Below, piece by piece: positions 3,911 to 56,884 of a stretch of 56,884 bases of DNA. The notes beneath the pieces were generated by a model, which saw only the letters and a program-made list of their open reading frames with translations, ran no database searches and had not been told where the DNA came from. Every line of letters begins with the position of its first letter. Position 1 is the first letter of the stretch. Source of the stretch: Vulcanimicrobiota bacterium (GTDB taxonomy: Bacteria; Vulcanimicrobiota; JAJTBE01); assembly GCA_021107945.1 (NCBI GenBank), contig JAIORV010000023.1:1-56884 (forward strand). Direction: 5' to 3'. The position numbers were made by a program, and so were the translations under genes.

Positions 3911-4621
3911 CTATGTGATGGTAGTTTCCCTCTCCCATTCCTTTCCGTTAAACAATTCGTGTAAAAACACGTTTACATGTCCCCATCCCACTGGAAATGA
4001 CTCGGCCTTGCTCTCTCCGCCGATGCGGTTTCCTTCAATTGTGGGTATTTCGCCGATATTTAATTTAAGCTTCATCGCCCTTATGCTCATCTGATACTCG
4101 ATGGGGAATTTCTGTTCGTCGGTGTTGAGTCTTTTGAAGACGTCTCTTCTCACCGCCCTGTAGCCGTTTATCGTATCATGAACGTAATCTTTCGTATTCC
4201 ACAGCAGGTTTGCGGTGTATGTAAAAGATTGATTCACCCACGCCCTCCACCTGAAGAAATGATCGTCCTCCTCATTCCGGGATCCCCTCATAAACCTCGA
4301 AGCAATGGCTATGTCGCATCCGTCCTCGATTTTGGCAAAAAGAAGGGGAATGTCCTCAGGATCCTCATTCCCATCGGGGCTGAAATAAAGCAGCACATCT
4401 CCCTTTGTCTTCCTGAGTGCGACGCGAAAAGCTTCTCCCCGGCCTTTTATTTCCTGTTCCAGGACTCTCAAGCCTTTTTCGTCGAGGAACTCCCTTGTGC
4501 CGTCTGTGGATCCGCCATCTACTGCGACAACTTCATCGGCGGCCTCAAAGGGAATTTTGTCATAAAGCTCCTTTATACCGTCGATTTCATTGAGGGTTAG
4601 AACAATAAGTGTTTTTTTCAT
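3911..4621 (-). CDS. GT2-family glycosyltransferase (DPM1/dolichyl-phosphate sugar transferase-like)
   Basis: A 236-aa GT-A fold glycosyltransferase. The first strand and nucleotide-binding VVAVDGGSTDGT are at residues 31-42, and the metal-binding acidic motif (PDGNEDP, about 82-88) takes the place of the usual DxD. Similarity of layout is to polyprenyl-phosphate sugar synthases that move a sugar from a nucleotide donor to a lipid carrier; there is no C-terminal membrane segment, so the enzyme would be peripheral. The open frame runs 35 codons further upstream to 4726, but the ATG at 4619-4621 is preceded by AAGGAC at a good distance and begins with the family-typical MKKTLIVLTLNE, so the shorter form is preferred. 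The substrate cannot be told. Confidence 0.85.
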   Translation of the reverse strand: MKKTLIVLTLNEIDGIKELYDKIPFEAADEVVAVDGGSTDGTREFLDEKGLRVLEQEIKGRGEAFRVALRKTKGDVLLYFSPDGNEDPEDIPLLFAKIEDGCDIAIASRFMRGSRNEEDDHFFRWRAWVNQSFTYTANLLWNTKDYVHDTINGYRAVRRDVFKRLNTDEQKFPIEYQMSIRAMKLKLNIGEIPTIEGNRIGGESKAESFPVGWGHVNVFLHELFNGKEWERETTIT

Positions 4622-4785
4622 GTCATAAGTCCTTTTTTTTATTGCATAAGCCACAATGTCCGTAAAGAAAGTTGATGTGGTCTGAATAATTCCTACTAAC
4701 ATTATGTAAGACATTCTATGAATCAAATATTTGCAGACTGACTGGATATTATTGATGTATTGATAACGAATGCAAATATCAATGT

Positions 4786-6888: not shown

Positions 6889-7155
6889 ATGTTTGACATG
6901 TCCCGAAGAATGAATTTAATAAATCTTATAAAAATTCTACCTGAAAAACAGATTGAAATGGCGGAAATTTATATCAAATCCATTATTTCCCAACTTAATG
7001 ACCCTGTTTTGGTAAAATTACTGACAGCGGATAACGATGATGAACCACTGACGGCAGAGGAAATAGCAGAAGGTGAAGCTAATTGGCAAGCTTATCTTCG
7101 GGGTGAAGCTATAGACTTTGATAATTTCGCAAAGGAACTTTCCGATGGTGAATGA
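6889..7155 (+). CDS. RelB/ParD-like antitoxin of a RelE-type pair
   Basis: An 88-aa acidic protein. The first 50 residues are helical (LINLIKILPEKQIEMAEIYI) and the rest is the acidic, disordered neutralising tail common to antitoxins (DEPLTAEEIAEGEANW). The start is fixed by a strong GGAGGT 9 bases upstream. The reading frame overlaps the toxin start by 11 bases, which implies translational coupling. I cannot assign a Pfam antitoxin class with certainty; the call depends on the neighbouring RelE-type toxin. Confidence 0.75.
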   Translation: MFDMSRRMNLINLIKILPEKQIEMAEIYIKSIISQLNDPVLVKLLTADNDDEPLTAEEIAEGEANWQAYLRGEAIDFDNFAKELSDGE

Positions 7156-7423
7156 ATTCAAGAACAAATGGAGGGTTTCCATTCCTATAGGAATAAAGAA
7201 AAAAATTAAAAAAATTCAGCCAAAAGAGCAGGCGCGAGTCAAGAATAAAATTTATGCCTTAAGGGATAGTGGAACGAGTGATCCTGATATTAAGCGCTTG
7301 GAAGGACGGATTGACTGGAGCTTGAGGGTGGGACGCTGGAGAATTGTTTTCAGAATTGACCTGGAAAATAGAACCATGGTTGCGATTAACTTCGGTCCCC
7401 GGGGCGATATATATAAGAAATAA
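7145..7423 (+). CDS. RelE/ParE-family mRNA interferase toxin
   Basis: A 92-aa basic protein with the RelE fold pattern: basic helices (IKKKIKKIQPKEQARVKNKI), then the beta-strand signature DIKRLEG, WSLRVGRWRIVFRID and a closing NFGPRGDIY. The R-x-G-x-x-R-I-x-F core is what defines the family. The longer open frame begins at 7118, but the ATG at 7145 overlaps the end of the antitoxin gene and is the conventional start. RelE relatives cleave mRNA in the ribosomal A site; ParE relatives act on gyrase, and sequence alone does not decide between them. Confidence 0.85.
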   Translation: MVNEFKNKWRVSIPIGIKKKIKKIQPKEQARVKNKIYALRDSGTSDPDIKRLEGRIDWSLRVGRWRIVFRIDLENRTMVAINFGPRGDIYKK

Positions 7424-7503: not shown

Positions 7504-8928
7504 CTAATCCTTCATCATCATCATAATCTTCAGTCCCCTGAAGAGATCCATAAATTGCTTCCAGGATTTTATTGAGGTGATTCTCTTCCATACATACGCA
7601 GGCCTCAGATAGAAGCTGTAGTAAGCTTTTCTCATCATATTGGCAAGCTCTTTTTCATCCCAATATTCGCTTGGAATGTGGGGAAAATCTTCTTTGGACA
7701 CCTGAAGGAGGGTGTATTTTTTCCAGAAGTCGGGGTCCAGGTAGCCTCTGTTGACGGACTCCTCGAAAAGATGGGTTGCAGGTAGTGGGGTTGTTATCGA
7801 GAACGAGGCGAAATCGAGGTCAAGCTCCCTTGCAATATCAACCGTGGACTTGTATGTGTCGGGATTTTCATCCAGGTATCCGATCATGAAATATCCCCTT
7901 GTGATGAATCCATATTTGCGGGCGGTCTTGAACGCCCACCTCACCCGGTCAAGGGTAATTCCTTTTCTCATCACTTTGAGGATGCGCTGATCGCCGGATT
8001 CAACTCCCATGTGGATGCCGTAACATCCCGTTTCTTTCAGCGCCGCCAACATCCTGTCGGTCACAGTGTCAACCCTTGTGCGGATATTCCATCGAAACTT
8101 CAGTTTTCTTTCTTTTATAAGCTTACATATTTCCAGCACCCTTTTTTCATCTATCGTGAAAGTCTCGTCGAACATCACTATTTCTCTTGCGCTATAATCA
8201 TGGACATATTTTTCGATTTCATCCACCAGGTCTTCAGGTGATCTGAAACGCGCCCGGTCGCCGCAATAGACCTGTGAGCAGAATCCGCATTTATATGGAC
8301 ACCCCCTGGACGATATCATTGTGAAGAACGGATGTTCAAGGGTGAGGCATTTATACCTGTCGAGGGGAAGCAGATCCACGGCGGGGTGAGGCAAATCGCT
8401 AAGGTTTTCAATCCAGGGTCTCGGAGGATTGATTTTCACCTCTCCATTAATCTTGACTGCCGTTCCTTTAATATCCTCGAGAAGCTCTCCTTTTTCCTTT
8501 TTCCTTACGATCTCCAGCAAAGTCTCCTCACCATCGCCTATAACCGCAATATCTATGAATGGAAACGAGAGTGACTCTTCCGGATATACTGAAAGGTGCG
8601 GCCCTCCCACAACAATCAAAGCGTCAGGGAGTGCCTTTCGTGCAAGCCCCGCCGCTTCCACAGCCCCGGGCCACCCGATTGTAGTGGATGTGATTCCCAC
8701 GATATCAGGATTCTTTTCCTTCAGTGTCCTGCCAAACTCATCGGATTCCATCTTCAACGCGTGGGCGTCGAGAATATCCACGGGATAATCGTATTTTCTA
8801 AGATATGAAGCAAGATAACCGATTCCCAGGGCGGGATACACCTGCAGCGTCTCCTCCGCCTCATCGGGGATCGGTCTTATGTTTGCATTTTGATGGTATT
8901 TTACAAGGAGGGTATGGGGTTTATTCAT
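7504..8928 (-). CDS. B12-binding radical SAM protein
   Basis: A 474-aa enzyme with an N-terminal cobalamin-binding Rossmann domain (about residues 30-150, including ALGIGYLASYL and VVGGPHLS) followed by a radical SAM barrel. The 4Fe-4S site is C210-x3-C214-x2-C217 in SSRGCPYKCGFC. Such proteins methylate or rearrange unactivated carbons in lipids, hopanoids, antibiotics or peptides; the substrate here is not evident. It is the last gene of a four-gene operon and its ATG overlaps the stop of the preceding gene by 4 bases, so its product may act on or with those membrane proteins. A second enzyme of the same class begins at 56473. Confidence 0.92.
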   Translation of the reverse strand: MNKPHTLLVKYHQNANIRPIPDEAEETLQVYPALGIGYLASYLRKYDYPVDILDAHALKMESDEFGRTLKEKNPDIVGITSTTIGWPGAVEAAGLARKALPDALIVVGGPHLSVYPEESLSFPFIDIAVIGDGEETLLEIVRKKEKGELLEDIKGTAVKINGEVKINPPRPWIENLSDLPHPAVDLLPLDRYKCLTLEHPFFTMISSRGCPYKCGFCSQVYCGDRARFRSPEDLVDEIEKYVHDYSAREIVMFDETFTIDEKRVLEICKLIKERKLKFRWNIRTRVDTVTDRMLAALKETGCYGIHMGVESGDQRILKVMRKGITLDRVRWAFKTARKYGFITRGYFMIGYLDENPDTYKSTVDIARELDLDFASFSITTPLPATHLFEESVNRGYLDPDFWKKYTLLQVSKEDFPHIPSEYWDEKELANMMRKAYYSFYLRPAYVWKRITSIKSWKQFMDLFRGLKIMMMMKD

Positions 8929-9644
8929 TTACCTTTTGCCCTTTTTAAGATAAGAACTTTGCACTTTTCGAGCACAGGCTGTGTTATGCCTTGTGTAGGT
9001 CTTGCCACATCAGGGGAATATGGGGCAAGGAATCTCTCGATTATATATTCCCTGTCCTTCAATTTTTTCTCGATATATTCCTTCTGTTCTGCAGTCAGCA
9101 AACCTTCCATCAATTTATTGGATTTTTCAACCACTTCAACAGATCGGGCAAGTTTTTTGACCGACGGATAAATTTTCTTCACCTGACTGTCGGTAAGCTT
9201 GTATTTCTTGCTCTTTTCCAGTTCTACTAAACTCCAGAGAAGATCCGACAAAACCCACCTGTGAAGAGTATAACGGCTTTCAATCTTCTGCTTGTCAAGT
9301 TCCGTAAGGTCTCTTCCTTTATTAATTGAGGGGTAAGTTATAACTCTCCCTCCAGGTCTTGCTCCGGGCACTCCCCCGGAACGCGGGGACATTCCCGGCG
9401 GGTGTCCACCCTGTCCCGGGCGCGGCGGATCGGGAATCTGTCCCGGTGGAGGCGGCGCGGATTCACCACCTCTTCCGTCGTTATATTGAACCTGAGCGTC
9501 AGCCTTGATATTGCGACCCCGGATAATATATGTCACCTGTGCGAACAGGCAAAATAAAAGGAGAACAACAACCGCTCTTTCAATAAAATATTTTGTTTTA
9601 TTCATTGACCGCTTCATACTCCTCTTCCTTTTCTTCATATCCAT
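8925..9644 (-). CDS. membrane-anchored Pro/Gly-linker protein with LTxxQ-type helices (paralogue 1)
   Basis: Not a family I recognise. It has a basic N-terminus, one transmembrane segment (about residues 19-43, FIERAVVVLLLFCLFAQVTY), an exported low-complexity linker rich in Pro, Gly and Arg (about 58-100), then a helical domain with two LTxxQ motifs (LTDSQ and LTAEQ) about 40 residues apart. That layout recalls the LTxxQ motifs of periplasmic Spy/CpxP proteins, but I would not claim homology. The neighbour at 9809-10468 has the same design. Three in-frame starts are possible (9644, 9615, 9605); the last overlaps the stop of the Cys-rich gene (ATGAATAA). The 3' end overlaps the radical SAM gene by 4 bases. 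Confidence 0.75.
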   Translation of the reverse strand: MDMKKRKRSMKRSMNKTKYFIERAVVVLLLFCLFAQVTYIIRGRNIKADAQVQYNDGRGGESAPPPPGQIPDPPRPGQGGHPPGMSPRSGGVPGARPGGRVITYPSINKGRDLTELDKQKIESRYTLHRWVLSDLLWSLVELEKSKKYKLTDSQVKKIYPSVKKLARSVEVVEKSNKLMEGLLTAEQKEYIEKKLKDREYIIERFLAPYSPDVARPTQGITQPVLEKCKVLILKRAKGK

Positions 9645-9804
9645 TCAGTCTGTTCCTACATGTCGAACAATATATCGAATCTGCATAGCCTGTGCATTCA
9701 ACACATACGCCTAATCCGCAGAATTCGCAACAAATACATACGGCAGCCGGCACAATTGAAAAATCCACTCCACAAATAGAACAGGTTCCACACATTGTCA
9801 CCAC
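9598..9804 (-). CDS. Cys-rich zinc-binding mini-protein
   Basis: A 68-aa protein with 11 cysteines in its first 49 residues (C5, C8, C11, C23, C25, C26, C29, C34, C37, C46, C49), arranged as several CxxC knuckles, and an acidic C-terminal tail (EEKEEEYEA). This density suggests two or more zinc sites. No enzymatic residues are visible. It sits between the two paralogous membrane proteins with 4 bases to the upstream gene and overlaps the downstream start. The first codon taken is a GTG; an ATG three codons in is equally plausible. Function unknown; a zinc-ribbon chaperone or metal sensor for its operon is a guess. Confidence 0.7.
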   Translation of the reverse strand: MVTMCGTCSICGVDFSIVPAAVCICCEFCGLGVCVECTGYADSIYCSTCRNRLNGYEEKEEEYEAVNE

Positions 9805-9808
9805 GCCT

Positions 9809-10468
9809 TTACATCCTCGTTTTCAAGAGCTTCAAAACTGACCTGGAATATTTCTCGATGGACTTCGGACTCAGTGGCCTTGAGCCTCCTCTTTTTATAC
9901 ACATCCGGAGATATGCATATCTCAATTGCTTATCCGTCAATGACTTAAAAATAATTTCCTGAGCTTCGGGCACCGCATCATCAACTTCGCTTTTCATATA
10001 AATAATTTCCTTGAGCTTGACCGCTTGCTCTTTTGTAATAGCAAGATCCTTCCTGTCTTCAAGAATTATTATCCCATAAATAAGTGCTTTGTAATAATCC
10101 TCACTGCTTTCTATGGAGAATTGCGCCTTGTCGAGATCGTCAACGAGTCCGGGAATTCTGGGTCCTTTATGCCTTAGCGACAAAGGAGACCTTGGTTCAT
10201 TCTGTCCCTCGCCATGGGTAACTCCGCCGACAACAGGCTGTGGCTCGTTGCCGATCGACTGGACAGTGCGCTTTTTATCTCCCTCTTCAGGCTCCTGACC
10301 CGGTACGGGCTCCGGCACACCGGGATCTTTGCCCTGGAGTAGGATTTTTGATTCTACAAGTCCTTTTTTGGAAAGAATCACCGGGTCATTAAAAAACATG
10401 ATGTAAACCTGCACGGCAAGTACAATAATTAACAAATATATGAGTATGTTACCCTTGCTTTTATCCAT
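9809..10468 (-). CDS. membrane-anchored Pro/Gly-linker protein with LTxxQ-type helices (paralogue 2)
   Basis: A 219-aa hypothetical protein and first gene of the operon running to 7504. One N-terminal transmembrane segment (about residues 8-26, ILIYLLIIVLAVQVYIMFF) is followed by a linker rich in Pro, Gly, Glu and Gln (about 45-105) and a helical domain. The domain carries ITKEQ and LTDKQ about 40 residues apart, matching the two LTxxQ motifs of the protein at 8925-9644, so the two are probably diverged duplicates. A sigma70-type promoter lies upstream at 10534-10562. Orientation predicts the helical domain outside the cytoplasmic membrane. I do not recognise the family. Confidence 0.75.
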   Translation of the reverse strand: MDKSKGNILIYLLIIVLAVQVYIMFFNDPVILSKKGLVESKILLQGKDPGVPEPVPGQEPEEGDKKRTVQSIGNEPQPVVGGVTHGEGQNEPRSPLSLRHKGPRIPGLVDDLDKAQFSIESSEDYYKALIYGIIILEDRKDLAITKEQAVKLKEIIYMKSEVDDAVPEAQEIIFKSLTDKQLRYAYLRMCIKRGGSRPLSPKSIEKYSRSVLKLLKTRM

Positions 10469-10793
10469 AATAATAAAACTACCTATCTTCTACGGTGAAA
10501 AACCACCTGTCTGAAAAGTTATTAGCTTAAAAAAATATAACAAAAAAGATTTCATATTTCAACAAATAATTACAAATTGAGGCCTGAGAGATTTTATTTT
10601 TAGAGTGATTTTAATAATCACAAAACAAATGCCGGACATATTTTCATTGCATTATCAATGTTTGAACCATGTTGTTTCGTTACTGATTTTTCAAGATTAC
10701 TATATATTATACAGGAATACTATCAATAATAATAGAGGGTTTTGACAGATCTAATTAAATATTACAGATTAACTCCAAAACGAGGTGAACATA
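10469..10793. other. divergent intergenic region
   Basis: A 325-bp AT-rich gap between the minus-strand operon and nifU-like on the plus strand. It contains the sigma70-type promoter described separately for the minus strand. On the plus strand TTGACA at 10742-10747 is the only good -35 candidate, but no matching -10 at 16-18 bp spacing could be found. No repeat or RNA gene seen. Confidence 0.6.
10534..10562 (-). promoter_or_regulatory. sigma70-type promoter of the LTxxQ/radical SAM operon
   Basis: On the minus strand TTGAAA (10557-10562) and TATATT (10534-10539) are separated by exactly 17 bp. The start codon at 10468 is about 60 bases downstream of the expected transcription start. Match is close to consensus in both boxes; not experimentally supported. 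Confidence 0.6.
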
Positions 10794-11832: not shown

Positions 11833-12186
11833 ATGTTCACGGCAACAATTAACTCACATAGCACTCTTCAGGAATTGGCAAATAAGCTGGTCAGGAATTT
11901 CTATGTTGATGACGGCTTTGTTCTACATTCCGCCATTATCGAAGTGCTTCAAAATACCGTTCAGCATTCTAACGGGCAGTTTGCATTTGAAGTAAAAAAA
12001 GATCACCTGATAATAACAAATCTCATCAAAAACAACGGGCATACCGGAGCTGGACTGGGACTCCAACTTTTTTCAGGAATATATACACATAAACAGGGAG
12101 ATCTCTTTTATACTTTTATCTTTCCGGATAAAGTCAGAATTATGGAATTGAATATTGAAGAAATCATGGAAGATGAGAGGTTATAA
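11833..12186 (+). CDS. anti-sigma-type GHKL ATPase
   Basis: A 117-aa histidine-kinase-like ATPase domain without a dimerisation domain, as in SpoIIAB/RsbW-type serine kinases. The N-box is visible as EVLQNTVQHSNG (about residues 37-48) and the glycine-rich lid as GAGLGLQ (about 72-78). Relatives bind a sigma factor and a phosphorylatable anti-anti-sigma partner, neither of which is adjacent here. The protein is shorter than RsbW (about 140-160 aa), with part of the region between N-box and lid reduced. It is followed by a clear terminator at 12227-12253, so it ends its transcription unit. Confidence 0.8.
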   Translation: MFTATINSHSTLQELANKLVRNFYVDDGFVLHSAIIEVLQNTVQHSNGQFAFEVKKDHLIITNLIKNNGHTGAGLGLQLFSGIYTHKQGDLFYTFIFPDKVRIMELNIEEIMEDERL

Positions 12187-13628: not shown

Positions 13629-16079
13629 CTAAGCTCCACCAAAGTAAGCCCTGACATATAGAACAGCACCTGAACCTGGAACGCTTCTTATTCTGAATCT
13701 TCCACCGATTCTTTCGCATTTGGATTTTATACCTTTAAGACCGAAGCCCTCACTATTTTTCTGCTCGTCGGCATTAAAGCCAACGCCGTCATCGGCTATG
13801 ATCAAGCTTATAAAACTATCCGTCTTCTTGAGCCTGATTCTCACAAGCTCGGCGTTCGAATGTTTTATCGAATTATTAATCCCTTCTCTTATAATCAGAG
13901 ACATTTGCTTTGCATGATCAGCAGATAGAAGCTTCAGTATTCCAGAGTTTTCAAAAATTATTTGAATCCCCGATTCACATGATTGCCTCTTTATGAAATC
14001 AGCCAGTCCACTCAAAATAATTTCAACAGACTCTTCTGCGGGGTCCCGAAGATTGTTTATTATTTTTCTGACCTGTTTAGCTCCCTCATTAACCGTTGTT
14101 TTGAGAATGTCAATGTCGCTGTCAGATTGAAGTGAGTTTTTCGTGATTTTTTTCTCAAGAATTTCTATTAACATCTTGGCGGCATACATTTCCTGGGCTA
14201 TTGTATCATGAATCTCTTCCGCAACCTGCCGCCGGTCGTCTTCTGATTTCAAGAGAAGCTTGTCTAAATCGGTCTTTTGCCTGTTTAGCTCACTTATCAA
14301 CTTTATCCTTGTTAACGCGGATTTCAGCCCTGAGGCAAAAGGTTGAAAATCGACCCGGTAATTTTGCTCACGATAGTAAAGATCCTGGTTGAATACAAAT
14401 ACTATCAGTGAATTGTGGTCATCAGGAAAATGAATGAAAATAAATATATAACAAAGACCTTTTTCCTCGCCTGCCTGAATTAATAAAGTATCTTCAACAT
14501 CTTCCACAATACCGGGAAGTCTCCCAATTAATCTTCCGATTTCAATTTCCCGTTCACCCGGTTCCGGATAAATTTCCAGAGGAGCATAATCTTTCGATAA
14601 TGTCGCCAGGAAAAGTTTTTCAAGAGGGAGATACTTTTCCATTCCTCTGAATAATTTTCCAACAATTTCAGGATAAGATTTAAGCTGTTGAAGCCTGTCG
14701 GGAAATTCTATTCTCTCCGGGAAATATTTATTATACACTTCAAGAGAAATCGATTTTATCCCCCTCACAAGCAGATATATTTTCTTTATGTCTAAAAATT
14801 TAAACACTCTTTCTTTTACATGCTGAAAGATAAATAAGGCCAACGGAAAATTATCCTCTCCCCCGGAGAAAACAGGAAGAATCAATATATCAGACATATC
14901 GATTCTTCCCGCCGCCTTTTCAAAAAAATCTCCACAGGAAGAATAAACCTCGATATTTCCGGGAGTCCAAAGAGAATATCCCTGCCTGTTAAAATCCTCA
15001 ATAATTTCAGGACACATACAAATCGATTCTGAATCATTGCAGGGGTCGCCATTCATATCGTGGGTAATCTTGAATATATTCCAGTATGGCGCCCTCATTG
15101 CAAGCTGAAATTTGATATCGGGGGAATATTTCTCCAGGAATCTCGAGATAATATTCAGATCAAGATTCTCACCCTCCGTTAATAATTTGTTCAGATCCTT
15201 CGTGAAATCGTCAATAAAATGATCGCCGATTGTCTTCAGGAGCCTTTTCAATCCTGTCAATACCGGGTAATAGAGGGATAAACATAAAAACACGGTCGCC
15301 ATGACGATATGCCCCCGGTAGTACAGAATAAATTCATGACTCCTTCTTAATCCGGCAATCATCTTTATACCACGGCATATAACAATGGATAAAGGTATTA
15401 TCAGGACAGGTGTAATATAAAGTGCCAATTCTTCAAGTCTGAATTCCTTTTCCTCCGGACTAATAAGGTTTCTTGAAATCTCAATTATTATCAAAATGAG
15501 AAAGATAATACTAAAAACAGGAAATGAAAGCCAACTGGAAACCAGAATAAAATCCAGAAAAAAACCTATACCCGAAAGAACCTGAGTGATCAGGACATGA
15601 AAATTTCTGTTTTTCACCCGGGGGTCCAGGCTTTTTCGAAATAAGTTAATGGCACCGGCACAAGTGAGAATCCAGCCCGATAGAGAAAAAAGTAAAACTA
15701 TATACGGAGGCTTTTCAGTGAAGATGAAAGGTAAAATAAACAGCAACGGGATAAGTGAAAGGGAGATAAATCTTAATATCCTGTTAGTTTTTCTCTCTTC
15801 GGGTATTAGGAGATAATTCCAGAGAGGCAGGGATGCAAAACAGGAAAACACTATCCTGTAGAGGATTTTGTTAATTATCGGGTTCAGATGGATTGATAAA
15901 AGCATTACAAGCAAGAGGGATAGAGAGCAAAAACCCAAGTATGCAACAAGCTTTGATTTTCTTCCACCTATGGGAAGTTTCTTTATAATAAAATAAAGCA
16001 AATTCAGACTTATGCCAAGACCTATAAACAAAACCAGATAGTAAAAAATATTGGAGTTTATATAGCTATGGTATGTCAT
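13629..16079 (-). CDS. NarL-type membrane sensor histidine kinase
   Basis: An 816-aa sensor with about nine N-terminal transmembrane segments (residues 8 to about 285), a long cytosolic region that looks GAF-like (about 300-580), a HisKA_3 dimerisation helix with the phospho-acceptor in AEEIHDTIAQEM (His at about 624), and a HATPase domain with N-box INNSIKH (about 734-740), DDGVGF (about 763-768) and GFGLKG (about 778-783). It would phosphorylate the response regulator encoded 10 bases upstream (16090-16731). The ligand is unknown; the polytopic sensor region is MASE/7TM-like and could sense lipids, light or membrane state. Both genes are on the minus strand and probably one operon. Confidence 0.92.
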   Translation of the reverse strand: MTYHSYINSNIFYYLVLFIGLGISLNLLYFIIKKLPIGGRKSKLVAYLGFCSLSLLLVMLLSIHLNPIINKILYRIVFSCFASLPLWNYLLIPEERKTNRILRFISLSLIPLLFILPFIFTEKPPYIVLLFSLSGWILTCAGAINLFRKSLDPRVKNRNFHVLITQVLSGIGFFLDFILVSSWLSFPVFSIIFLILIIIEISRNLISPEEKEFRLEELALYITPVLIIPLSIVICRGIKMIAGLRRSHEFILYYRGHIVMATVFLCLSLYYPVLTGLKRLLKTIGDHFIDDFTKDLNKLLTEGENLDLNIISRFLEKYSPDIKFQLAMRAPYWNIFKITHDMNGDPCNDSESICMCPEIIEDFNRQGYSLWTPGNIEVYSSCGDFFEKAAGRIDMSDILILPVFSGGEDNFPLALFIFQHVKERVFKFLDIKKIYLLVRGIKSISLEVYNKYFPERIEFPDRLQQLKSYPEIVGKLFRGMEKYLPLEKLFLATLSKDYAPLEIYPEPGEREIEIGRLIGRLPGIVEDVEDTLLIQAGEEKGLCYIFIFIHFPDDHNSLIVFVFNQDLYYREQNYRVDFQPFASGLKSALTRIKLISELNRQKTDLDKLLLKSEDDRRQVAEEIHDTIAQEMYAAKMLIEILEKKITKNSLQSDSDIDILKTTVNEGAKQVRKIINNLRDPAEESVEIILSGLADFIKRQSCESGIQIIFENSGILKLLSADHAKQMSLIIREGINNSIKHSNAELVRIRLKKTDSFISLIIADDGVGFNADEQKNSEGFGLKGIKSKCERIGGRFRIRSVPGSGAVLYVRAYFGGA

Positions 16080-16089
16080 TTTTCTTGTA

Positions 16090-16731
16090 TTATTCTATCC
16101 AACCCGATTTCAAAGCTATTGTAACGGCGTGCGTCCTGTCGCGGGCATCCAATTTGCGCAATATCTCCCTGAAATTAGATTTAACCGCGCCCTCCTTGAC
16201 ATCCATTTCAAGAGCAATCTCTTTGTTGGAATAGCCTTTTGATGCAAGCGTTAGAATCTGCGTCTCGATATTGGATAATTCCGGACTCCCGGAAATCTTC
16301 TTTTTCATATTCGAGAACCGCTCAAGAACCTTGTGTGTCACGGACGGATCCAGGACGGCATGCCCTCTGTAAAGCGATCTAACTGCATCAACGAGAGCTT
16401 CCACAGTTACATCCTTGGGAAGATAACCCATAGCTCCCGCGGAAATTGCTCCGAATACTTCCTCATCACCCGAAAAAGCCGACAGGATTATTACTTTAAT
16501 CGATGGATCAATCTCCAGCATCTTTCGCGTGGCCTCTATTCCATTCATGCCTATCAACTTCATATCCATTACCGCAACATCGAAAGATTCTTTCCTCAGG
16601 CTTTCTATACATTCCTCCGCGTTGTTCCAGCTTCCCAGGACATCAATATCAAACTCCTGGTTCAACACCCTGACCAAGACCTGCCTCAAAATCGTATGAT
16701 CATCGACTACAACCACTTTTATCTTATTCAG
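16090..16731 (-). CDS. NarL/FixJ-family response regulator, possible CTG start
   Basis: A receiver domain (acidic pair VVDDH, phospho-acceptor Asp in AVMDMKL, then KVIILSAF and GAMGYLPKD) followed by a LuxR-type HTH (ILTLASKGYSNKEIALEM, then VKSNFREILRKL). The first conventional start is a GTG at 16714-16716, giving 208 aa that begin MVVVDDH. The frame continues upstream to CTG at 16729-16731, which restores the usual LNKIKVVVVDDH and sits 6 bases behind a GGGGGTG; the next codon upstream but one is a stop. I give the CTG form as more likely, but not proven. Its kinase is the adjacent gene. DNA targets are unknown. Confidence 0.8.
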   Translation of the reverse strand: MNKIKVVVVDDHTILRQVLVRVLNQEFDIDVLGSWNNAEECIESLRKESFDVAVMDMKLIGMNGIEATRKMLEIDPSIKVIILSAFSGDEEVFGAISAGAMGYLPKDVTVEALVDAVRSLYRGHAVLDPSVTHKVLERFSNMKKKISGSPELSNIETQILTLASKGYSNKEIALEMDVKEGAVKSNFREILRKLDARDRTHAVTIALKSGWIE

Positions 16732-56265: not shown

Positions 56266-56472
56266 GGGAGATGGGAATATTTTTGCCTCCAACATCTCGC
56301 CTTTCACCTCTCATCATGTAATAATTATGTAAATTTTCAATATTCCCTCCATTCCCGCGTTCTCTGTGCCCTTTACGGTATCCATAAAAAGGACAGGAAA
56401 CAGGAAACAGGCAATATTGAGCAAATATTTATCATAATCATCTGAGAGAGTATTTACGTGGGGAGTATTAAT

Positions 56473-56884
56473 ATGAAGATTGGACTTATCGAAGCCTGCG
56501 ATCCGGATTGGCAGTTTAAACGTTTCTCTTATCCGCTCCAGTTAGGATACCTCGCTTCATATCTGAAGAAATATGATGAAGGTGAGAATGGTTCAGAATC
56601 ACGGATTGAAATTATAATTACCGAGGAGATTGACGAGATAATCAATGCTCAACCCGATCTTGTCGGAATAAGCTCATATTCCATCAATTATGATATTGCT
56701 GTTGAATTTGCAAAAAAGATAAAAAATGAGCTTAATGTACCCGTTATCCTTGGAGGGTGTCATATCTCCGCTCTTCCTGAGACATTTAAGCCTGTCTTCG
56801 ACCTTGCCGTTTCCGGCGAAGGTGAAAAAACATTCAGGCAAGTGGTTGATTTATACCGGAAAAAAGGGAAGTTCGAAAAGGAAG
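56473..56884 (+). CDS. B12-binding radical SAM protein, 5' part (runs off window)
   Basis: From the ATG at 56473 the frame is open to the window end, 137 codons. It begins KIGLIEACDPDWQFKRFSYP and continues QLGYLASYLKKYD and PDLVGISSYSINYDIAVEF, then PVILGGCHISALPE and FDLAVSGEGEKTF: the N-terminal cobalamin-binding domain of a B12-radical SAM enzyme, as in 7504-8928. The radical SAM barrel with its CxxxCxxC would lie beyond the window. Ribosome site is weak (GGGGAG about 9 bases upstream). Confidence 0.85.
   Translation, partial: MKIGLIEACDPDWQFKRFSYPLQLGYLASYLKKYDEGENGSESRIEIIITEEIDEIINAQPDLVGISSYSINYDIAVEFAKKIKNELNVPVILGGCHISALPETFKPVFDLAVSGEGEKTFRQVVDLYRKKGKFEKE

Follow-up and report, generated by a model that had tools for sequence, protein, structure and literature searches.

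Two small proteins, P1 and P2, encoded in the stretch of DNA analysed here (56,884 nucleotides in full, hereafter the window) are, judging by their sequences, members of a larger protein family in which a transmembrane (TM) or signal segment and a linker are followed by an LTxxQ domain. Six further genomes of the phylum have a gene of the P1 type followed by an adjacent one of the P2 type. The reading we favour, if tentatively, is that P1 and P2 would form a periplasmic heteropair of the Spy type that is tethered to the membrane and serves a pathway for envelope glycans. The relevant features of the window are the following.

7504..8928, minus strand: B12-binding radical-SAM enzyme, 474 aa, with the cluster motif CPYKCGFC
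8925..8928, minus strand: overlap of 4 bases between the end of P2 and the start of the radical-SAM gene
8925..9644, minus strand: P2, 239 aa, with N-terminal TM/signal segment, Pro/Gly linker and LTxxQ domain; possible start at 9605
8934..9263, minus strand: LTxxQ domain of P2 by profile match (the profile includes the window sequence), with LTDSQ and LTAEQ, plus a C-terminal helix
9598..9804, minus strand: mini-protein with GTG start, 68 aa including 11 Cys; a start at the ATG at 9795 would give 65 aa
9809..10468, minus strand: P1, 219 aa, with N-terminal TM anchor, Pro/Gly linker and C-terminal LTxxQ domain
9812..10105, minus strand: LTxxQ domain of P1, residues about 122-219, with ITKEQ and LTDKQ; domain match 122-217
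11833-12186: small ORF, kinase-type ATPase-like by eye, with a weak DUF6272 match only
13629-16079: HisKA_3 kinase (Pfam match), upstream of the P1-P2 operon
16090-16716: response-regulator-like ORF, read from sequence, lying together with the kinase 3-6 kb upstream

Four tightly packed genes thus follow one another on the minus strand, in the order P1, 11-Cys protein, P2 and radical-SAM enzyme. An earlier note on this DNA had placed them in the span 7504-10562; they do lie inside it, but the genes stop at 10468 and positions 10469-10562 are upstream DNA. The stop codon of P1 (9809-9811) is separated by 4 bases from the GTG of the mini-gene at 9804, and the end of the mini-gene overlaps the start of P2, where the in-frame ATG at 9605 would leave an overlap of 8 bases. 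Promoter-like sites (10 vs 6.1 in shuffles) and terminator-like sites (4 vs 3.6) were not informative.

The homology of the two domains, proposed from the sequence in that note, was borne out when a profile of the P1-type domains was compared with one of the P2-type domains (probability 96.7, E 4.5e-10). Two strict LTxxQ motifs are present in P2 (LTDSQ at 150 and LTAEQ at 183), whereas P1 combines one strict motif, LTDKQ at 177, with the degenerate ITKEQ at 144, so that the assignment of two motifs to each protein holds in full for P2 only; the spacing between the motifs is 33 residues in both. Hydropathy analysis gave a single TM-like segment near the N-terminus of each protein, and both look exported or membrane-anchored, as had been suggested; it should be added that the N-terminus of P2 is signal-peptide-like in most relatives. 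Structure models were poor (mean pLDDT 54 and 56) and placed helices, with low to medium confidence, at residues 122-138, 146-161, 166-176, 179-193 and 201-217 of P1 and at 132-144, 152-182, 185-205 and 222-236 of P2.

LTxxQ proteins of the Spy type are known to act free in the periplasm, as chaperones or as stress adaptors. Of the natural proteins among the PDB sequences, the family profile A8 ranked Spy (E 1.8e-5) and CpxP (E 6.1e-4) best, with a designed protein between them (E 4.4e-5); the match to Spy was built of motif-sized stretches that are weak singly, the best of them at E 0.1. These matches point weakly to the LTxxQ domains of P1 and P2 being distant relatives of Spy/CpxP, and the resemblance that had been drawn from the motifs alone is thereby upheld as a distant profile relation. 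P1 and P2 matched no Pfam family at E<=1, PF07813 included, and 4 of 29 LTxxQ family domains matched PF07813 (best E 0.0026). Within the same genome PF07813 matches were located on contigs C47, C69 and C30 and none on C2 or C13; a separate CpxP/Spy-like PF07813 gene of this genome lies beside ORFs reading as an ECF sigma factor and an anti-sigma factor. In common with Spy/CpxP (LTXXQ, PF07813), P1 and P2 appear to be small helical exported proteins carrying LTxxQ motifs. The motif spacing of 33 residues, however, contrasts with roughly 73 in Spy, a value read off the alignment, and the family adds the N-terminal TM anchor, the Pro/Gly linker, the pairing and multi-domain paralogues. Spy itself is described in PMC4791398 as an ATP-independent chaperone with two LTxxQ motifs that forms a cradle-shaped dimer.

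The structure search with the P1 model put CnrX in its first row (2y3h; Z 4.8, with an rmsd of 3.4 over 64 residues), level with unrelated rows. No Z >=5 was obtained for the P1 or P2 models among the top-ranked PDB chains of Foldseek, P2 yielding nothing useful, and the absence of Spy and CpxP from these top lists is uninformative either way. CnrX, a metal sensor of Cupriavidus, is anchored in the membrane by a TM segment and binds metal via His. Its TM-anchored periplasmic helical sensor domain resembles the arrangement proposed for P1. A CpxP/CnrX-type pair sensing envelope stress or metal and signalling to a kinase or an anti-sigma factor has to be considered, for which the relation to CpxP/Spy, the faint structural resemblance between P1 and CnrX, and the upstream HisKA_3 kinase, response-regulator-like and ATPase-like ORFs speak. 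But, unlike in CnrX, no His is found in the P1 domain, and the single His of the P2 domain is not conserved among relatives. No sigma/anti-sigma pair was seen beside P1, the window neighbours tested gave no sigma or anti-sigma Pfam match, and no kinase, sigma or anti-sigma gene recurred beside the pair in relatives, whose neighbouring ORFs were mostly read by eye. Moreover, the genome has its PF07813 gene beside sigma/anti-sigma-like ORFs elsewhere. We therefore consider a sensor pair improbable.

The conserved adjacency of P1-type and P2-type genes was observed in G034, G030, G042 and G046 and also in G004 and G024, both of which are outside the profile-building set; the P1 partner in G046 was recovered at E 1.3e-5 by a P1 profile built without that sequence. 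Overlaps of 4 bases within the pair were detected in G034, G046 and G004. Furthermore, one ORF of 376 aa on contig C13 of the window's own genome joins a P1-like N-half (E 6.2e-9 against P1) to a P2-like C-half (E 2.7e-11 against P2), and this fusion begins 28 bases after a GT-C-like gene. In total, 113 matches to the LTxxQ domain were distributed over 59 loci in 13 genomes. A P2 match in G055 was set aside as probably due to chance, its alignment being confined to the Pro/Gly linker region. Some LTxxQ proteins adjoin prepilin-like genes (G009), and some adjoin ORFs reading as PQQ-like repeat proteins (G004:C43, near 311 kb).

A GT-C-like gene was located within 5 kb of 20 of the 59 LTxxQ loci against 1.06 expected, a count that is partly circular, as neighbours of LTxxQ genes had supplied the sequences for the GT-C profile. 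Among held-out loci, which had not entered that profile, the figure was 11 of 50 against 0.87 expected, 6 of the 11 belonging to genus g26, whose sister loci fed the profile, and one (G024:C173) having been noticed before the count. A count with one genome per genus gave 14 of 45 against 0.73. The GT-C-like neighbours have 5-13 hydrophobic segments each by hydropathy, and in 10 of 11 a D/E follows the first TM segment (column numbered on the first sequence). A YfhO match was returned for 2 of 11, a YfhO score of 18.2 bits stayed below the 28.5-bit cut-off, and no NCBIfam match and no PDB sequence match was obtained for these proteins. The recurrent LTxxQ partner is on these grounds only weakly assigned, from sequence features, as a polytopic GT-C/YfhO-like membrane protein. 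Multi-component transmembrane glycosylation systems of the CsbB/GtcA/YfhO kind, as far as covered by the part of PMC8035078 at hand, resemble it in the polytopic GT-C/YfhO-like partner and in the acidic residue after TM1, but that part mentions no LTxxQ partner, unlike the loci described here.

These counts also bear on the simplest alternative, namely that P1 and P2 are general periplasmic Spy-like chaperones without a dedicated partner that happen to lie beside an unrelated radical-SAM gene. Such a chance assembly would agree with the 39 of 59 LTxxQ loci, some on short contigs, that have no GT-C gene within 5 kb, and with the prepilin-like and PQQ-like neighbours mentioned above. However, the held-out GT-C enrichment and the conserved order of P1 and P2, with overlaps, argue against it, and we regard it as doubtful, albeit the most serious competitor.

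We infer a heteropair because the genes are conservedly adjacent and naturally fused. In the glycan-pathway reading, P1 and P2 would act in the cell envelope as a conserved unit of two proteins: an N-terminal TM segment would tether P1 to the inner membrane, P2 may be tethered as well in this genome, and the flexible Pro/Gly linker would project a small helical LTxxQ domain into the periplasm, where the two domains most likely act jointly. The pair would probably serve to hold an exported acceptor, either a polypeptide or a glycan-lipid, or to bring it into position, for an enzyme that builds envelope glycan, the candidate for which is the GT-C/YfhO-like membrane protein often encoded beside LTxxQ genes in this phylum. 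In the window itself no GT-C gene occurs within 5 kb of the pair, nor on contig C2 among the matches listed; the pair is joined instead with the Cys-rich mini-protein and the B12-radical-SAM enzyme. That enzyme may act in the same pathway, by methylating a precursor, but is not an obligatory part of it. If true, a tethered, paired, sometimes fused and GT-C-adjoining family would be a new use of the LTxxQ domain, its members acting as helpers dedicated to a glycan machine of the envelope, in a phylum that has been little studied. For proteins that otherwise lack annotation, the GT-C association names a specific partner that can be tested. No report of the LTxxQ pair family was found in the available portions of the literature on LTXXQ, Spy/CpxP/CnrX/ZraP, GT-C/YfhO and Eremiobacterota (including PMC6664022).

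The earlier note had proposed that the combination of a maturation-type enzyme with exported Pro/Gly-rich proteins may be a new envelope modification or sensing system; this radical-SAM-centred interpretation is supported only in part, while the underlying sequence observation is confirmed. The enzyme matched the Pfam families Radical_SAM (E 7.1e-27) and B12-binding (E 5.3e-21), and its nearest solved sequence was 6fd2 (AprD4; E 7.6e-26). The best NCBIfam rows were HpnJ (TIGR03471; 204.6 bits, cut-off 577.6) and BchE (186.5 bits, cut-off 481.35); it shares its domain architecture with HpnJ/BchE-type B12-radical-SAM enzymes, and since both scores are far below the cut-offs it would represent a separate subfamily unnamed in NCBIfam. 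Orthologues with 53-59% identity were present in 8 other genomes, and for the 9 closest matches the contig either had no LTxxQ gene or had one 85 kb off (5 of the 9 contigs are shorter than 7 kb). Window-like radical-SAM genes were found near at least 3 of the 59 LTxxQ loci against 1.76 expected, which is no enrichment, and at 10 kb near at least 6 against 3.1, still weak, these counts being lower bounds from the best 150 matches. P1/P2-type proteins are widespread without such a neighbour, the outcome that the earlier note had named as refuting its reading, and P1-P2 pairs of other genomes lack the enzyme within the stretches read. The orthologue neighbourhoods, as far as the contigs extend, and the locus counts led us to reject the radical-SAM enzyme as a conserved LTxxQ partner, and its gene in the window looks like a local addition beside P1-P2.

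A dedicated four-gene system, in which the enzyme would modify P1, P2 or the mini-protein in a RiPP-like manner or by protein methylation, is hence the least probable explanation. The tight operon with its 4-base overlap would suit it, as would matches to class-B enzymes of RiPP pathways, ApyD (E 1.3e-51) and rSAM_ocin_1 (E 2e-27), although both are far below cut-off and HpnJ and BchE remain the strongest NCBIfam matches. Against it stand the orthologues away from LTxxQ genes within contig reach, the pairs without the enzyme, and the neighbourhoods of the orthologues, where no relative of the mini-protein was found (ORFs >=50 aa; the same 5 of 9 short contigs).

A different B12-radical-SAM subfamily was detected beside GT-C genes in 6 of 23 cases against 0.4 expected, the held-out part being 4 of 20, all in family f13. 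Its members lie within 5 kb of LTxxQ genes in 2 of 23 cases against 0.31 expected, a link without held-out support, because both these members built its profile and none of the 20 others is so placed. Since LTxxQ genes and this second subfamily are both tied to GT-C genes, the idea of an envelope-modifying role, unsupported in its radical-SAM-centred form, stays plausible in a wider GT-C-linked one. It may even be imagined, though we think it unlikely, that a phylum-specific module of B12-radical-SAM enzymes, GT-C-like glycosyltransferases and tethered LTxxQ heteropairs both builds and chaperones a surface glycan or glycolipid that is methylated; the operon of the window would then be a reduced form in which the pair and a radical-SAM enzyme are retained.

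The 11-Cys mini-protein between P1 and P2 was confirmed from the sequence, and a start at the ATG at 9795 would retain all 11 Cys; when the window was shuffled 20 times by mononucleotide, no ORF of 55-99 aa exceeded 9 Cys. The search for it in other loci, proposed earlier, gave no convincing relative across 149 genomes of the phylum: matches at E<=0.1 occurred in 16 of the 149, the window's own included, with the best elsewhere at E 0.0046. Its best outside match (L110), a 71-aa open frame lost from the non-overlapping ORF listing, was set aside. In the PDB its matches were to zinc-finger, RING or cellulose-synthase rows, and were weak (best E 0.045 for the mini-protein). It should also be added that the hydrophobic Cys-rich stretch of the mini-protein passes the same TM hydropathy threshold as P1 and P2.

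The four closely packed open reading frames of the earlier note, including a 68-aa protein with 11 cysteines, were confirmed on the minus strand of the window, as was the overlap of 4 bases between the radical-SAM gene and that of P2, one of the two LTxxQ-domain envelope proteins (P1 and P2) of this operon:

10468-9809, minus strand: P1, 219 aa
9804-9598, minus strand: mini-protein, 68 aa, 11 Cys
9644-8925, minus strand: P2, 239 aa
8928-7504, minus strand: radical-SAM protein, 474 aa, with B12-binding and Radical_SAM domains (Pfam)

Neither P1 nor P2 had a Pfam match at E ≤ 1, and none was over the cut-off for the mini-protein. The genes directly flanking the operon, a divergent NifU-like gene upstream (Pfam) and a convergent ParE-like gene downstream (slightly under the Pfam cut-off), look unrelated to it. 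The latter and a small unmatched ORF upstream of it make up a toxin-antitoxin-like pair (6889-7423), and another such pair, DUF5615/DUF433, was found at 1865-2485. A family 2 glycosyltransferase (3911-4726, E 7.9e-18) lies on the same strand about 2.8 kb past the radical-SAM gene. Upstream of the operon and separated from it by other genes, a HisKA_3 histidine kinase (Pfam) and a response-regulator-like ORF occupy 13629-16716, and a small ORF at 11833-12186 reads as a histidine-kinase-type ATPase, possibly of anti-sigma type, with a weak DUF6272 match only in Pfam.

Profile comparison revealed the P1-type and P2-type domains to be homologous (probability 96.7, E 4.5e-10), and the LTxxQ-type motifs are spaced by 33 residues in both proteins of the window. 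The resemblance of these motifs to Spy/CpxP, pointed out in the earlier note, was borne out as a distant relation: with a profile of 29 family domains searched against PDB sequences, the best natural proteins were Spy (E 1.8e-5) and CpxP (E 6.1e-4), one designed protein ranking between them. The aligned stretches are motif-sized, the best single one having E 0.1, and the motif spacing of Spy in this alignment is about 73 residues, in contrast to 33 in P1 and P2. In our reading, the Spy/CpxP-like group includes the P1/P2 domains as a compact and distant branch. AlphaFold models of the two proteins were weak (pLDDT 54 and 56). For the P1 model the highest-placed PDB structure was that of CnrX, 2y3h, at Z 4.8 with 64 residues superposed to an rmsd of 3.4; 2y3d reached Z 4.2, and unrelated structures, among them 1gil (Z 4.5), scored on a par. 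The P2 model returned nothing noteworthy among PDB structures. Metal sensing is disfavoured, since the P1 domain has no histidine and the single one of the P2 domain is not conserved.

The 57 other genomes searched as relatives share the phylum only, none being closer. As a single query at a threshold of E ≤ 0.01, P2 of the window matched nine of the 58 genomes, own genome counted, the one in G055 being probably due to chance; the P2 profile extended this to 14 of 149 genomes at E ≤ 0.001, own genome again included. P1-type genes followed by P2-type genes were found in G034, G030, G042 and G046, and likewise in G004 and G024, both outside the profile-building set, with 4-base gene overlaps in the pairs of G034, G046 and G004. 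The P1 partner in G046 was missed by single-sequence search and recovered at E 1.3e-5 by a P1 profile built without it. At G040:C423 and G012:C78 the P2-type gene was seen alone, at a contig end. The second copy in the own genome is a single fused P1-P2 ORF of 376 aa on contig C13 (L052, 9394-10524), which starts 28 bases past a GT-C-like gene (857 aa); a PMT-family gene lies 3 kb beyond the fusion on the opposite strand. In our reading, the N-termini of the relatives' P2 proteins would mostly be signal-peptide-like. P2 relatives in named genomes came from five MAG contigs, one titled UBP9_UBA6111; UBP9 is treated as belonging to Eremiobacterota in an excerpt of PMC6664022. Another of the five, JAAZKF010000185.1 (L124), carries a P2-type gene and is labelled, probably wrongly, Burkholderiales.

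When LTxxQ loci were read through, a polytopic, GT-C/YfhO-like membrane protein was found to recur, with 11 examples linked by phmmer. These have 5-13 hydrophobic segments and D/E after the first segment in 10 cases, and their resemblance to YfhO is weak (2 of 11 at E ≤ 0.01). GT-C enzymes of YfhO-type pathways have 8-13 TM segments and low mutual similarity, and one of their extracellular loops usually bears a DxD-like motif (excerpt of PMC8035078). The GT-C profile gave 93 matches in 13 genomes; after merging, these made up 72 genes or tandem groups. Within 5 kb, such a gene accompanied 20 of 59 LTxxQ loci, a set diluted by weak and Spy-like matches, versus 1.06 expected from density, a conservative value with genome sizes rounded and contig ends ignored. 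Without the nine loci on contigs that supplied the profile, the count was 11 of 50 (0.87 expected), six of the 11 belonging to genus g26, whose sister loci fed the profile, and one, G024:C173, having been noticed ahead of the count. With one genome per genus it was 14/45 versus 0.73.

The radical-SAM enzyme did not follow this pattern. Its orthologues (53-59% identical) gave nine matches in eight other genomes, G024 holding a fragment; an LTxxQ gene shared the contig in one of nine, in G004 and 85 kb apart, five of the nine contigs being under 7 kb and four (G004, G030, G040 and G048:C128; 11 kb to 364 kb) informative. Window-like enzymes lay within 5 kb of at least 3 of the 59 LTxxQ loci, the window being one (1.76 expected), and within 10 kb of at least six (3.1 expected), counting the best 150 matches listed. 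A second B12-radical-SAM subfamily, distinct from that of the window enzyme, was found within 5 kb of GT-C genes in 6 of 23 cases versus 0.42 expected (4 of 20 with three profile members removed). At G012:C54, radical-SAM, GT-C and LTxxQ genes are packed in this order, the last scoring similarly with P1 and P2 profiles, and at G004:C43 three bases separate radical-SAM and GT-C genes. Near LTxxQ loci themselves this subfamily occurred within 5 kb in 2 of 23 cases (0.31 expected), both profile members, and in none of the 20 held-out members. These data keep alive a wider link of B12-radical-SAM enzymes to the LTxxQ/GT-C theme, but do not extend to the specific four-gene system proposed earlier. 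Separately, at G048:C7:482-1795 a radical-SAM gene with an internal stop adjoins one LTxxQ and one GT-C-like gene; the own genome has at least 26 window-like matches at E ≤ 1e-15 among those listed, and another B12-radical-SAM-like gene begins at the window end (56458-56884; G000:C2:56530-57651).

Beyond the genomic facts, we infer, as the best-supported reading of the sequences, that P1 and P2 would form a tethered periplasmic heteropair, because of their adjacency and fusion, which would be probably chaperone-like, given the Spy relation, and may serve an envelope glycan pathway, given the GT-C neighbourhood. The mini-protein, with its 11 cysteines and a hydrophobic stretch, is most likely a small metal-binding (zinc) protein; it was found in one genome only, and no convincing relatives were detected in 149 genomes of the phylum. 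LTxxQ proteins as such are already known; no report of a tethered, paired, GT-C-linked family in this phylum was found in the literature searched.

Other LTxxQ or Spy-like loci were also observed. A lipoprotein-like ORF with two LTxxQ domains (G009:C33, 7864-8763; L059) is divergent from prepilin-reading ORFs, one of which has an N-methylation match under the cut-off. In the own genome, a PF07813 CpxP/Spy-like protein on contig C69 (L120), separate from the P1/P2 family, is encoded next to ORFs that by eye resemble ECF sigma and anti-sigma factors.
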